Source: Caulobacter sp. HMWF025 (lineage in GTDB: Bacteria > Pseudomonadota > Alphaproteobacteria > Caulobacterales > Caulobacteraceae). Taken from it: 42,616 nucleotides of DNA. Of this stretch, positions 545 through 6,101 are shown one piece after another. A program made the position numbers and the translations under genes. The stretch is taken from contig NZ_QAII01000103.1 in the NCBI RefSeq assembly GCF_003060965.1, positions 18,740-61,355 of the forward strand, given 5' to 3'. Numbering within the stretch: position 1 is the stretch's first letter; each line of letters starts with the position of its first letter. The notes under the pieces were generated by a model. It searched no databases. It was given only the letters and a program-made list of their open reading frames with translations, and had not been told where the DNA came from.

Positions 545-1075
545 ATGCGCATCTGGCTGGCGGTTGCCGCCCTCACCCTGACCCTGACCACCGCCGCCCG
601 GGCCGAGGTCGTTGATGCGACGCCGGGCGGCTTCCAGGTTCGTCAGTCGGTCGAGATCGCCGCCCCGGCCGCCCGGGTCTGGGCCAGCCTGGTGCAACCG
701 GCCCTGTGGTGGGACCCGCGCCACACCTGGTCCGGCTCGGCCGCCAATCTCTCGCTGGCGGCGGCCTCAGGGGGCTGTTTCTGCGAGCGTCTGCCCGGGG
801 GCGGCTCGGTGATGCACATGAGCACGGTCCATGCCGCGCCCAATGCGAGGCTGACCCTGTTCGGCGCGCTCGGCCCCCTGCAGAACACCGGCGCGGCCGG
901 TCACCTGAACATCCTGCTCTCCGAGAAGGACGGCAGGACCACCGTCACCCTCACCTATGATGTCGGCGGCTATATGAAGGGCGGGCTCGCCACCCTGGCC
1001 GCGCCCGTCGACGGCGTGCTGGGCCAGCAGATCCAGCGGCTCAAAGGTCAGGTTGAAACGGGGAAGGCCGGCTAG
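545..1075 (+). CDS. Exported SRPBCC-family (START/Bet v1-like) protein
   Basis: The 176-residue product starts with a classical signal peptide (residues 1-20, hydrophobic core AVAALTLTLTTA, cleavage after ARA). After it comes an SRPBCC-type domain: VEIAAPAARVWASLVQP, then a WW-DPRHTWSG strand region, and a C-terminal helix (VDGVLGQQIQRLKGQVE) that would cap the ligand cavity. SRPBCC proteins bind hydrophobic ligands. The exported form suggests a periplasmic lipid or small-molecule role, but the ligand cannot be read from the sequence. The start is well supported by GAGGAAATA ahead of ATG. It follows the GumN-like gene by 12 bp. Confidence 0.75.
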   Translation: MRIWLAVAALTLTLTTAARAEVVDATPGGFQVRQSVEIAAPAARVWASLVQPALWWDPRHTWSGSAANLSLAAASGGCFCERLPGGGSVMHMSTVHAAPNARLTLFGALGPLQNTGAAGHLNILLSEKDGRTTVTLTYDVGGYMKGGLATLAAPVDGVLGQQIQRLKGQVETGKAG

Positions 1076-1158: not shown

Positions 1159-2535
1159 CTAGCTGGCGGCGGCCAGGTCGTCGTCGCTGGCCCCCAGCAG
1201 CGCCATCTGCAGGCGGGCCCGGTCGCGGCGGGCCGCTTCCAGGGCGCCTTCGGCCAGGGCGGCTTCCGAGGTCAGGCGATCGATCTGGGTCTGAAGTTCG
1301 GCGATCTTGTCCTCGTGCTGGCGGCGAGCCTCGTCCTGCGACTGCTGCAGCGTCTCGAGACGGATGCGCAGCTGGTTCTCGCGCTCTTCCGACCGCTTGA
1401 GGGTCTTTTCGTGGGCGACCGCGCTCTTGGCCAGCTGGTCCGCGCGCTCGATGGCCGCAGCACGGGCGGTGTCGACACCGGCATGACGCTGGCGCAGACC
1501 ATCGCTTTCCTCTTCCAGGCTGCGAATGCGCTCAAGTGCCCGCTCGAGGGCGACGTTGAGGTCGCCGGCCCGGCGCTCGACAGCCTGCTGCTGGGCGCTG
1601 GACTCGGCGAGGCGCGTGGCCATCTGGCCGTTCATCTCTTCCAGCTTGTCGGCCCGACCGGTGGCGGTCTCCAGGCGGGTCTGCAGGGCCGAGATCTCGG
1701 CACGGCCGGTCTCGACCTGGCTCTCAAGGCCACGGATCGTGCGGCTGCTGTCGGTCTGATGCACCGAAAGGGCGTTCTCGGCGGCCTGCAGGCGAGCCCG
1801 CTCGGCGGCAATCTGAGCTTCCAGATCGGTCTCGACCCGCGACAGACGCGCAACATCGAAGCCGGCCTGATCGAGGCGCTTCTTCAGGGTGGCGACCTCT
1901 TCGGTCAGCAGGGCATTCTGCTGCTGGACGCGGGCCAGCGAGGCCTCGGCTTCGCCACGGCGAGCGTCGATGTCCTGGCTCTGGACGCGCAGGGTATCAA
2001 CGTCCTGCACGAGATGCTCGATCCGGGCATTGGCGTCCCGCAGCGAGGCGTCCAGGCTGCCGGCCTTCAGGTCCGACTGCAGCAGGCCATTGCGCAGGCG
2101 ATCAATTTCTAGGGCGCTGTCTTCGAGGGCCGTGTCCTGGGCCTGCCGGCGGGCGTCGGATTCGCCGAGCGCCGTTTCAGTCTGCTGCAGGCGCGCAGCG
2201 GTTTCACGCTCTTCGGCCTTGGCAACCGCAGCCTGCCGCAGGGCCATTTCGTAATTGGCCCGCAGGGCGATCAGCTCGGCATGTTCGGCCCGGCGGGCCT
2301 CGAATTCCTCGGCGACCGGCTGGCGGATCTCGCTGAGCAGCGGCTCGATGGCGCGCAGGTGCTCGACGACGCGGGCGATGCTGTCGAGCCCGCCGTGAAT
2401 GGTTTCGTAGCGGACGCCGATGGCCTGGGTGGACTCGATCAGACGGTCGGCACCCTCGGGGCGGCCGACGCCTTCGACCAGCATGGCCGGCTTCACCGTC
2501 TTGGTGTCACGGACGTTCTTGGACAGCAGCCTCAT
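1159..2535 (-). CDS. creS: Crescentin, intermediate-filament-like cell-curvature protein
   Basis: The 458-residue product is almost entirely coiled coil and matches what I remember of Caulobacter crescentus crescentin (457 residues). It has a basic N-terminus (MRLLSKN, TKTVKPAML) for membrane and MreB association, the segment YETIHGGLDSIARVVEHLR, then a long heptad-rich rod from about residue 80 to the end (TRLETATGRADKLEEMN, LRQRHAGVDTARAAAIERA), and a short tail RARLQMALLGAS. Crescentin polymerises under the membrane along the inner curvature and makes cells vibrioid. I chose ATG 2535 over the in-frame GTG at 2544: an AAGG lies 8 bases before the ATG, and the known protein begins MRLLSKN. 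It has its own promoter region and terminator, and is not obviously in an operon. Confidence 0.93.
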   Translation of the reverse strand: MRLLSKNVRDTKTVKPAMLVEGVGRPEGADRLIESTQAIGVRYETIHGGLDSIARVVEHLRAIEPLLSEIRQPVAEEFEARRAEHAELIALRANYEMALRQAAVAKAEERETAARLQQTETALGESDARRQAQDTALEDSALEIDRLRNGLLQSDLKAGSLDASLRDANARIEHLVQDVDTLRVQSQDIDARRGEAEASLARVQQQNALLTEEVATLKKRLDQAGFDVARLSRVETDLEAQIAAERARLQAAENALSVHQTDSSRTIRGLESQVETGRAEISALQTRLETATGRADKLEEMNGQMATRLAESSAQQQAVERRAGDLNVALERALERIRSLEEESDGLRQRHAGVDTARAAAIERADQLAKSAVAHEKTLKRSEERENQLRIRLETLQQSQDEARRQHEDKIAELQTQIDRLTSEAALAEGALEAARRDRARLQMALLGASDDDLAAAS

Positions 2536-2601
2536 CTCGCCCACCTTCTCACGAACCGCGCGACGACACCCGGCGTGCCGTAACGGCCTCGCGACCGCGC
2601 A

Positions 2602-2624
2602 GAATCATTTTAACAATCGTTAAC
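2602..2624. promoter_or_regulatory. creS upstream region: GANTC site and TTAAC inverted repeat
   Basis: The 232 bp between creS and the end of ahpF hold no gene. At 2602-2606 there is GAATC, a CcrM methylation site. At 2610-2623 TTAAC and GTTAA form an inverted repeat around AATC. The two TTAA cores are 6 bp apart, one less than the CtrA consensus of 7, so a CtrA site is possible but not standard. These sit about 70-90 bp upstream of the creS start. Confidence 0.35.
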
Positions 2625-2767
2625 AGATTAGCTTGCGCGCCCGAATGCTGTCGAGGCGAAGATCGTGTGAAGCTTGGGGACGCATTGCCGCAGAGCGCGT
2701 TTTTGGGCGCCGTCGCAGGCTCTCCAGAGGAAAGCCATGCAACGGCACCCGGACGCTAAGGCCTGAC

Positions 2768-4357
2768 TCAGGCTGCGGCCTGCTCGGCGGCCGCAACCGG
2801 CTCCAGCCGGATCAGGTAGTCAAAGGCCGAAAGCGCCGCCTTGGAGCCCTCGCCCATGGCGATGATGATCTGCTTGTAGGGCGTGGTCGTCGCGTCCCCG
2901 GCCGCGAAGACCCCGGGGAGCGAGGTCTCGCCGCGCTGATCCACCTCGATTTCGCCGCGCGGGCTCAGGGCAATACCGCTGTCCTTCAGCCATTCGGTAT
3001 TGGGCACCAGGCCGATCTGCACGAAGACACCGTCCAGGTCGACCCGGTGCAGGCTGTCGCTGCCCCGGTCCTTGTAGCTCAGGCCCGTCACGCGGCTGCC
3101 GTCGCCATGGATCTCGGTGGTCATGGCCGAGGTGACGATCGTCACGTTCGGCAGGCTGGCCAGCTTGCGCTGCAGGACAGCATCGGCCCGCAGCTGGCCG
3201 TCGAACTCGATCAGGGTGACATGGGCGACGATGCCGGCCAGATCGATCGCGGCCTCGACGCCGCTGTTGCCGCCGCCGATCACCGAGACGCGCTTGCCCT
3301 TGAAAAGTGGGCCGTCGCAGTGCGGGCAATAGGCCACACCACGGTTCTTGTACTCGGCCTCACCGGGCACATTGACGTTCCGCCAGCGGGCTCCGGTGGA
3401 CAGGATGACGCTGCGGGCCGACAGGCTGGCCCCGTTCTCGAGCTCGACCTCGATCAGGCCGCCCGGAGACGCGGCCGGGACGAGCCCCACGGCCTTCTGC
3501 AGGTTCATGATGTCGACATCGTAGTCCCTGACGTGCTGTTCCAGGCCCGAGACCAGCTTGGGCCCTTCGGTGTGCGAGACCGAGATGAAGTTCTCGATGG
3601 CCATGGTGTCCAGCACCTGGCCGCCGAAGCGCTCGGCTGCAATGCCCGTGCGAATACCCTTGCGGGCCGCATAGATGGCTGCGGCCGCACCGGCCGGCCC
3701 CCCGCCGATCACCAGAACGTCGAAGGCGGCCTTGGCGCGGATCTTGTCGGCCATGCGGTCGGCCGCGCCGGTGTCGAGCTTGGCCAGGATCTGTTCCAGG
3801 TCCATGCGCCCCTGGCCGAACGGCTGGCCGTTCAGCAGGATGGTCGGCACGGCCATCACCTGGCGCGCCTCGACCTCGGCCTTGAACAGGGCCCCATCGA
3901 TGGCGACGTGGCGGATTCGCGGGTTCAGGGCGCTCATCGTGTTAAGGGCCTGCACCACGTCCGGGCAGTTCTGGCAGGACTGCGAGAAATAGGTCTCGAA
4001 ATGATAGTCGCCGTCGAGGTCGCGGACCCGGTCCAGGACCTCGGCCTCGAAGCGCGGCGGGTGGCCGCCCACATGCAGCAGGGCCAGGACCAGCGAGGTG
4101 AACTCGTGGCCCAGCGGCAGGCCGGCGAAGCGCACATCGGCATCGCCTGACGCCCGGGTGATGGCAAAGGACGGCTTGCGCGCGTCGTCGCCGTCAAAGC
4201 GGAGGCTGACCTTGTCGGAGGTGCTGGCCACGTCCTCGAGCAGGGCCCGCATGTCGCGCGCGCCGCTGCTGTCGTCGAGCGAGGCGACGAGCGTGATCGG
4301 CTGACGCAGGTTCTGCAGATAGGCGGTCAGCTGGGTCTTCAGGCTGGCGTCCAACAT
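2768..4357 (-). CDS. ahpF: Alkyl hydroperoxide reductase subunit F (NADH:AhpC disulfide reductase)
   Basis: This flavoprotein of 529 residues passes electrons from NADH through FAD and two redox disulfides to AhpC. The N-terminal tandem thioredoxin-like domain carries CQNC (C128/C131). The FAD site is [10 protein letters not shown] near residue 218, the redox centre of the reductase module is CPHC (C344/C347), and a second dinucleotide motif VIGGGNSG follows. The C-terminal FAD motif is [12 protein letters not shown]. Length and domain order match E. coli AhpF. A GGAG lies upstream of ATG 4357. It lies downstream of ahpC on the same strand, with a terminator-like hairpin between them. Confidence 0.95.
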
Positions 4358-4418
4358 CGGAGGCTCCGGAGGCGAGGCGCACCTCTCCCGTCGGGAGACA
4401 TGAGCCAGTTTTTCGAAT

Positions 4419-4475
4419 GAGAAAATAGGGCGTCGCCGCGGGCTCCGTGGGGAGACGGCCAGCGGGCGGCGACGC
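4419..4475 (-). terminator. Hairpin with T-rich tail between ahpC and ahpF
   Basis: GCGTCGCCG (4430-4438) pairs with CGGCGACGC (4467-4475). Read on the minus strand the stem is followed by CCTATTTTCTC. It would terminate or attenuate ahpC transcripts before ahpF. A separate 15-bp dyad TCTCCCGTCGGGAGA lies at 4384-4398, just upstream of ahpF. Confidence 0.55.
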
Positions 4476-4515
4476 CGGACCGCGACCCGCCAGGGGCCGC
4501 GGTCGGTCTACAGAC

Positions 4516-5079
4516 TTAGATCTTGCCGACGAGGTCGAGCGAGGGGGCCAGGGTCTTCTCGCCCTCTTCCCACTTGGCCGGGCAGACTTCGCCCGGGTGC
4601 GAGGCGACGTACTGGGCGGCCTTGATCTTGCGGATCAGCTCGGCAGCGTTACGACCGATGCCTTCAGCGGTGATTTCCATGAACTGGATCACGCCTTCGG
4701 GATCGACCAGGAAGGTGCCGCGGTCGGCCAGGCCGACGCCTTCGCGCATGACCTCGAAGTTGTTGGTCACCAGGCCCGACGGGTCGCCGATCATGGTGTA
4801 CTGGATCTTGCCGATGGCCGGCGAGCTGTCGTGCCAGGCCTTGTGCGAGAAGTGGGTGTCGGTCGAGACCGAATAGACCTCAACGCCCATCTTCTGCAGC
4901 TCGGGATAGTTGTCAGCCAGGTCTTCAAGCTCGGTCGGGCAGACGAAGGTGAAGTCGGCGGGGTAGAAGAACACGACGGACCACTTGCCCTTCAGGTCGG
5001 CGTCGCTGACCTCGATGAACTTGCCGGCCTTGAAGGCCGTCGCGGTGAAGGGTTTGATGGTGGTGTTGATCAAGGCCAT
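4516..5079 (-). CDS. ahpC: Alkyl hydroperoxide reductase subunit C (2-Cys peroxiredoxin)
   Basis: The protein of 187 residues reduces hydrogen peroxide and organic hydroperoxides in the cytoplasm. The peroxidatic cysteine is C47 in [10 protein letters not shown], and the resolving cysteine is C166 in the VCPAKW motif near the C-terminus. The rest ([22 protein letters not shown]) is typical of the AhpC/Prx1 class. The length equals E. coli AhpC. ATG 5079 has GGGAG upstream. It is divergent from oxyR and shares an intergenic region that contains an OxyR-type site, so peroxide induction is expected. AhpF downstream is its reductase. Confidence 0.97.
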
Positions 5080-5204: not shown

Positions 5205-6101
5205 ATGCTCCCCACCCTGCGCCAGCTGCAATATCTCAAGCTTCTGTCCGAGCACGGCTCGTTCAGCCGGGCCGCCGAAAGCGCCCATGTCACCCAGCCG
5301 ACCCTGTCGGCCGGAATCCAGGAGCTGGAAAAGATCCTGGGCGCGGCGGTCGTCGACCGGGCCCGGTCGGGGGTGATCCTGACCGCCGCCGGCCAGGAGG
5401 CCGTGCGCCGGGCCGAGGATATTCTCGCCCGGACCGAGGACCTGGTACAGGCGGCCCGTGGCGCGGGGCTGCCCCTGGCCGGGCGCTTCCGGCTAGGCGT
5501 CATTCCGACCGTGGCTCCCTATCTGCTGCCGAGGGCCCTGCCGGTGCTGCGGGACCGCTTCCCCAAGCTGCGCCTGTTCCTGCGCGAGGACCTGACCCAG
5601 CGCCTGATCGCCGCCCTGAAGGCCGGGGCCCTCGACGCCGCCCTGATCGCCCTGCCCTATGACATGACCGGTCTGGACTGGGCCCATGTCGAGGACGATG
5701 AACTTCTGGCGGCGGCGCCGGCCAATCACCCGATGTCGGCCTCGGTGCGGGTCGACCCCGACAGCCTGAAGAACGACGACCTGATCCTGCTCGAGGACGG
5801 CCACTGCCTGCGCGACCACGCCCTGGCGGCCTGCGGTCTGGAGCCGCCGCGCGGGGTCGGGGACGAAGAAAGCTTCGCCGCCACCTCCCTGCCGACCCTG
5901 GTGCAGATGATCGGCTCGGGCCTGGGCGTCTCCTTCCTGCCGGCCATGGCGGTCCACGCCGGTCTGACCGACAAGACCGCCGTCACGGTCCGCCCGCTGG
6001 ATTCGGATCATTCCAGCCGCGAGATCGTGGTGGCCTGGCGAGCAGGCTCCAGCCGCGCCGCCGAGGGCCGCCTGCTGGCCGAGACCCTGCAGGCCGCCTG
6101 A
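5205..6101 (+). CDS. oxyR: Hydrogen peroxide-sensing LysR-type activator OxyR
   Basis: This LysR-type regulator has 298 residues, with an N-terminal winged HTH (FSRAAESAHVTQPTLSAGIQ, about residues 20-40) and a C-terminal sensing domain. The peroxide switch is clear: LLEDGHCLRDHALAAC holds C201 and C210, nine residues apart like C199 and C208 of E. coli OxyR, with the same LLEDGHCLRD context. Oxidation forms a disulfide that activates ahpC and related genes. It is divergent from ahpC across the OxyR site. There is no clear Shine-Dalgarno sequence; CCTAGGCT lies six bases before ATG, so the transcript may be leaderless. The site covers the expected -35 region, so autorepression is likely. Confidence 0.95.
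   Translation: MLPTLRQLQYLKLLSEHGSFSRAAESAHVTQPTLSAGIQELEKILGAAVVDRARSGVILTAAGQEAVRRAEDILARTEDLVQAARGAGLPLAGRFRLGVIPTVAPYLLPRALPVLRDRFPKLRLFLREDLTQRLIAALKAGALDAALIALPYDMTGLDWAHVEDDELLAAAPANHPMSASVRVDPDSLKNDDLILLEDGHCLRDHALAACGLEPPRGVGDEESFAATSLPTLVQMIGSGLGVSFLPAMAVHAGLTDKTAVTVRPLDSDHSSREIVVAWRAGSSRAAEGRLLAETLQAA

Follow-up and report, generated by a model that had tools for sequence, protein, structure and literature searches.

The window analysed here, a 42,616-nucleotide stretch of Caulobacter sp. HMWF025, carries on its minus strand a gene that translation, Pfam and PDB matches and purifying selection identify as creS, encoding a crescentin of 458 amino acids (coding sequence 1162-2535, stop codon 1159-1161). 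Translation of minus-strand positions 1159-2535 gave 458 codons plus a stop, open throughout, running from MRLLSKNVRDTKTVKP to MALLGASDDDLAAAS, and the length, coordinates and MRLLSKN start given in the initial annotation were correct. That annotation did not name the strand, and the plus strand in the same frame contains an internal stop within 1159-2535. It also had the protein ending with MALLGAS; this motif is present, but the true end comes eight residues later, with DDDLAAAS. The start codon is likely the ATG at 2535, which the annotation had likewise chosen in dropping a three-residue extension. MRLL stands at the N-terminus of every one of the 38 genus orthologs whose frame was extracted intact, a figure to be read with the fact that the extraction searched for the MRLL start motif first, and the alternative GTG at 2542-2544 (three more residues, ORF 1159-2544) sits within the purine-rich AAGGTGG (2541-2547, minus strand), a likely ribosome-binding stretch that was read from the sequence and has a similar counterpart in most of the aligned upstream regions. 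Plus-strand ORFs across creS were taken to be long antisense frames of GC-rich DNA and were set aside as genes. The gene is single-copy, with one CreS_N match in the source genome (176 contigs, 99.95% complete).

Convergent to creS lies a gene for an SRPBCC-type protein (Polyketide_cyc2; 545-1075, plus strand), and inspection by eye showed between the two, at 1107-1136, an inverted repeat flanked on either side by T runs. This repeat, which was not among the terminators listed by the scan, could stop transcription of both genes. On the other side, creS is followed along the window by an ahpF-like reductase gene (2768-4357, minus strand), the ahpC peroxiredoxin gene (4516-5079, minus strand) and a gene for a LysR-type regulator (5205-6101, plus strand), for which a threshold of E ≤ 1e-110 gave matches in 73 of 75 congeners. 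Judging by its position and family, this regulator is probably OxyR, and we refer to its gene as oxyR; the peroxide-defence genes said to adjoin creS are real, comprising an AhpF-like protein, AhpC and an OxyR-like LysR-type regulator.

The protein matched the Pfam model CreS_N (PF25217) with 161.6 bits (cut-off 27) over model positions 1-80 of 80, and Rod_CreS (PF19220) with 156.8 bits (cut-off 100) over positions 2-359 of 359. Crescentin of C. crescentus (PDB 8afl) was matched with 672 bits, residues 1-457 of the query aligning to 1-456 of the chain, and the two C. crescentus crescentin entries (672 and 664 bits) were the only PDB sequences at E ≤ 0.1. Identity to C. crescentus CreS came to 356 of 456 aligned reference positions (78%), with a gapless rod. 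A generic long coiled-coil protein of the SMC or myosin type might resemble crescentin through heptad composition alone, and SMC_prok_B was indeed the top match (4.6e-10) of the ten NCBIfam families listed, which include no crescentin model, with other coiled-coil families following at weaker E-values. Cross-matches of this kind are, however, usual for coiled-coil sequences, and the SMC_prok_B score of 37.9 bits lies far below that model's equivalog cut-off of 567.35, whereas the CreS_N score comes from the non-coil N-terminal segment alone and the crescentin alignment runs from end to end. These last two findings rule out a generic coiled-coil identity, to which we give practically no weight. 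The full-length crescentin reading of the initial annotation therefore holds: among solved structures the best matches are to crescentin, the scores of generic coiled-coil families are far lower, and the MRLLSKN segment, whose lack would have spoken against it, is present, so that the similarity exceeds coiled-coil composition. By sequence, the gene is an intact, full-length, ordinary crescentin ortholog. As such it is one more member of a well-described family, for which structure, function and distribution have already been published, and the added ortholog in itself means little.

Along the minus strand, the gene encodes an N-terminal segment of 27 residues (N27, codons 1-27, 2455-2535, delimited by alignment), the remainder of the head (residues 28-80, 2296-2454; the CreS_N model covers residues 1-80), a coiled-coil rod (residues 81-445, 1201-2295; Rod_CreS match at residues 82-439) and a C-terminal tail (residues 446-458, 1162-1200, again from the alignment). 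N27, which is required for membrane attachment in C. crescentus (PMC10873595, PMC3087291), is the least conserved part, with 15 of 27 residues identical to C. crescentus (56%). It retains the basic character previously attributed to it, the first 28 residues holding 6 K+R and 3 D+E (6 and 4 in C. crescentus). Identity reaches 39/52 in the head remainder (75%, residues 28-79), where 32 of the 52 reference positions are invariant across 38 sequences, 293/365 in the rod (80%) and 9/12 in the tail. The 38 sequences comprise 34 core and four divergent orthologs of the genus, G022 (broken frame) and G050 being left out. Among them, length changes are confined to N27 or the tail save for one rod indel, a deletion of exactly one heptad (C. 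crescentus residues 251-257) in the four divergent species; the comparison hence separates the variable parts, namely the lengths of N27 and the tail, from a constant rod length that is altered by one whole heptad alone. Cysteine cross-linking in C. crescentus has probed 18 residues, of which 15 are unchanged in the window protein. Since 10 of these 18 are invariant across the 38 sequences, as are 190 of 456 positions in the protein as a whole, the contacts are not clearly better conserved than the remainder of the protein.

Heptads were scanned with a simple home-made score rather than a published coiled-coil predictor, and the window protein scored 79.9 against 28.2 ± 4.8 in 60 shuffles, in line with the heptad check that had been proposed for it. 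Phase breaks were found at residues 266 and 410, plus a small third at 447. The break at 410 (stutter region, 1303-1320, minus strand) matches the published stutter, placed at C. crescentus residue 406 (the insertion site before it), which equals window residue 407 (PMC10873595); the same scoring put the C. crescentus break at 409. A second stutter-like break, near residue 266 (window residues 258-270, about 1726-1764), lies beside the site of the heptad missing from the four divergent species. All four of the core sequences that were scored show it, at 265-269, while a divergent sequence gave two smaller shifts nearby. This break may be an artefact of the score, and we found no mention of it in the available portions of the crescentin papers.

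Pairwise dN/dS values for the window creS were 0.13 against G005, 0.20 against G041, 0.31 against G015, and 0.26 and 0.24 against two members of the C. crescentus clade, as obtained by a simple counting method at well-diverged synonymous sites. Against the divergent G058 the value was 0.45, with synonymous changes near saturation. The range of 0.13 to 0.31 against five core relatives indicates that the gene is under purifying selection.

Upstream of creS, conservation delimits a promoter-like block of 53 bp (2602-2654, minus strand), made up of TCGACA (2649-2654), GCTAATC (2626-2632), GTTAAC (2619-2624), which is the invariant GTTAAC-type core, and, at its end, GATTC (2602-2606), a GANTC methylation site. 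In the upstream alignment its pattern reads TCGACA, about 17 nt, CTA...TGTTAAC, about 12 nt, GATTC; the exact pattern fits 36 of 38 aligned regions, and GATTC and TCGACA occur in all 38. When 75 whole genomes were scanned, the pattern was found once each in 38 and in none of the other 37, and a reversed-pattern control gave no occurrence in any of the 75. Every one of the 38 hits lies 50-83 bp before a CreS_N match on the same strand, which amounts to 38 of the 40 creS-bearing congeners and none of the 35 others; in the two creS-bearing exceptions, G035 and G073, the elements are present but vary slightly in spacing or letters. Because a scan with the standard sigma-70 consensus, from which C. 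crescentus promoters differ, found no site upstream of creS, the promoter assignment rests on conservation.

TCGACA and GCTAATC may be read as sigma-73 boxes. On that reading GATTC would come after the start site, whereas PMC4287350 describes upstream GANTC sites; a creS transcription start was not found in the portions of that paper available to us. Letters resembling CtrA half sites around GTTAAC were suggestive only, and we make no claim for them. In C. crescentus, creS is reported to depend on GcrA and methylation (PMC8959179, crediting work from 2020), and its mRNA is 1.6-fold lower in a ccrM deletion (PMC3973325). By analogy, the creS-specific GANTC block fits the published GcrA/CcrM control of creS; the block of C. 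crescentus itself may already appear in the 2020 paper on GcrA and methylation, and no priority is claimed. The source genome encodes MreB and the GcrA family, the latter by two proteins, both above the Pfam cut-off (G000:C157:1181-1672 and G000:C59:2032-2454). The 53-bp block makes methylation control of curvature testable in many species.

Crescentin had been described in the initial annotation as known from few Caulobacter relatives. This remark is outdated, since CreS_N matches were found in 40 of 75 species of the GTDB genus (33 of 60 among good-quality genomes), the frame-broken G022 being counted with the 40, and since a published survey from 2025 reports creS in most Caulobacter, some Brevundimonas and Hyphomicrobiales (PMC12700997). 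The 35 congeners with no match include incomplete genomes, such as G024 at 61%. Across the family, 66 of 390 genomes matched at E ≤ 0.001, 50 of them above the cut-off, in 2 of 22 genera. In a tree of rpoB and rpoC, built by a quick method from 60 genomes (56 from the genus), the 13 deepest rows of the genus have no creS and are followed by the four divergent species. Members of the core clade have creS, the exceptions being the incomplete G024 and a group of nine species united in a single clade (SH-aLRT 99). These sequences are most simply read as creS being present before the divergent and core lineages split, with one loss thereafter, which appears to have occurred in the nine-species clade, a clade whose placement within the core differs between genes; for the deep clade, losses rather than a later gain are possible. 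A tblastn search (E ≤ 0.01) of 20 stretches, taken from loci where creS is lacking or has moved, detected no creS relics. The nine-species clade offers a place where cell shape could be checked.

The order SRPBCC-creS-ahpF-ahpC-oxyR is found in the window and its near relatives, and SRPBCC-creS-oxyR in C. crescentus-type genomes; in the one of these that was checked (L056), creS and oxyR are separated by an AhpD-like CMD gene. The SRPBCC gene marks the same site in species that lack creS: in all 12 creS-lacking deep-branching congeners fetched, SRPBCC and oxyR keep their order and orientation although creS is missing, and eight of the 12 have an AhpC-like gene in between. The neighbour of creS on the oxyR side varies by clade, being AhpF plus AhpC in the window (2768-5079) and the AhpD-like CMD protein in the C. 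crescentus-type G072 (L056:8392-8952), and the AhpC-like peroxiredoxin of the eight creS-lacking species (L077:4422-4877) differs, at 32-36% identity. It appears that one peroxide enzyme was exchanged for another next to the same regulator. In the divergent species creS adjoins a pair of genes (about 283 and 714 aa), and this pair also lies within about 6 kb of creS in G072, which suggests that the divergent and C. crescentus-type creS loci derive from one ancestral locus; the 283-aa partner gene is absent from the listings for L059 and L061.

Gene trees of the locus and of housekeeping genes place the window lineage (G000, G005, G041 and G022) differently. It groups with clade A, whose named members include Root655 and AP07, in the rpoB, rpoC and alaS trees (support 99/99 for alaS), and with the C. 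crescentus clade in those of CreS (99/99), OxyR (97/92) and SRPBCC (100/98), the groups having been named after the trees were viewed and the CreS conflict depending partly on rooting with a distant outgroup. The AU test rejected the clade A grouping for CreS (p-AU 0.032), OxyR (0.029) and SRPBCC (0.0019), and did not reject the reverse grouping for alaS (p 0.17). By eye, the upstream region of the window resembles clade A more, whereas the coding part is nearer the C. crescentus clade, which may reflect a finer mosaic. We consider it possible, though on balance somewhat doubtful, that recombination with the C. crescentus clade, at its stem, exchanged the SRPBCC-creS-...-oxyR block of the window lineage and gave it an ancestry unlike that of unlinked housekeeping genes, and that creS kept a private methylation-site promoter through its change of site. 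If true, a cell-shape gene and its neighbourhood would be exchangeable between Caulobacter lineages.

In C. crescentus, one-sided, membrane-attached crescentin filaments bias wall growth and thereby curve the cell (PMC10873595, PMC3087291). Alongside the orthology, intactness, conserved architecture, conserved promoter block and purifying selection described above, we would expect, by analogy with that work, the same filament assembly, membrane attachment, curvature and methylation control here. Non-polar filaments would form from parallel coiled-coil dimers that touch laterally and end to end, the basic N27 segment would tether these filaments, as a bundle, to the inner membrane along one flank of the cell, and wall growth would be lowered at the filament side, so that the cell grows curved; creS transcription would probably be timed by CcrM methylation of the upstream GANTC, read by GcrA. 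A curved cell is accordingly a prediction from orthology, as sequence alone does not reveal shape. The organism could instead carry a real crescentin that is silent or too weakly expressed and be straight under most conditions. Curvature depends on the amount and timing of CreS, as established in C. crescentus, and loss of function can occur, if one judges by the metagenome assembly G022, in which the reading frame of creS is interrupted between residues 124 and 128 (L053:4958-6182) while the promoter block is intact; that copy is either a pseudogene or an assembly error. The window creS, by contrast, is under purifying selection and has both an intact promoter block and a likely ribosome-binding site, and we judge a silent gene improbable. 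We favor, with a probability of roughly 0.94, the reading that the window gene is a Caulobacter creS ortholog whose product functions as it does in C. crescentus.

Compared with CreS of C. crescentus/vibrioides (8afl/8afe), the window protein has the same order of head, rod, stutter and tail, nearly the same length (458 versus 457 residues), a basic N-terminus and a creS-specific promoter block with GANTC. Of the 456 aligned positions 100 differ, with the highest density in N27 and in rod residues 80-121. The locus differs too: ahpF-ahpC occupy the interval from creS to oxyR, which in C. crescentus-type genomes holds the AhpD-like (CMD family) gene. The divergent crescentins of the genus (G014, G046, G058 and G062) share the MRLLSK start, CreS_N matches of 106-117 bits and the same promoter block, but are 59-60% identical, lack one heptad and are encoded 63-67 kb from oxyR in three species and on another contig in the fourth. 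More distant still are the crescentin-like proteins of genus g6, probably Brevundimonas going by PMC12700997, which gave weak CreS_N matches in 26 genomes (10 above the cut-off) and full-length tblastn matches at 37-38% in the four examined; their genes have other neighbours, and the Caulobacter promoter block was not found in four g6 upstream regions by eye and a simple motif search. Further afield, a crescentin-like protein of Chelatococcus reniformis restores curvature in a C. crescentus creS deletion (PMC12700997).
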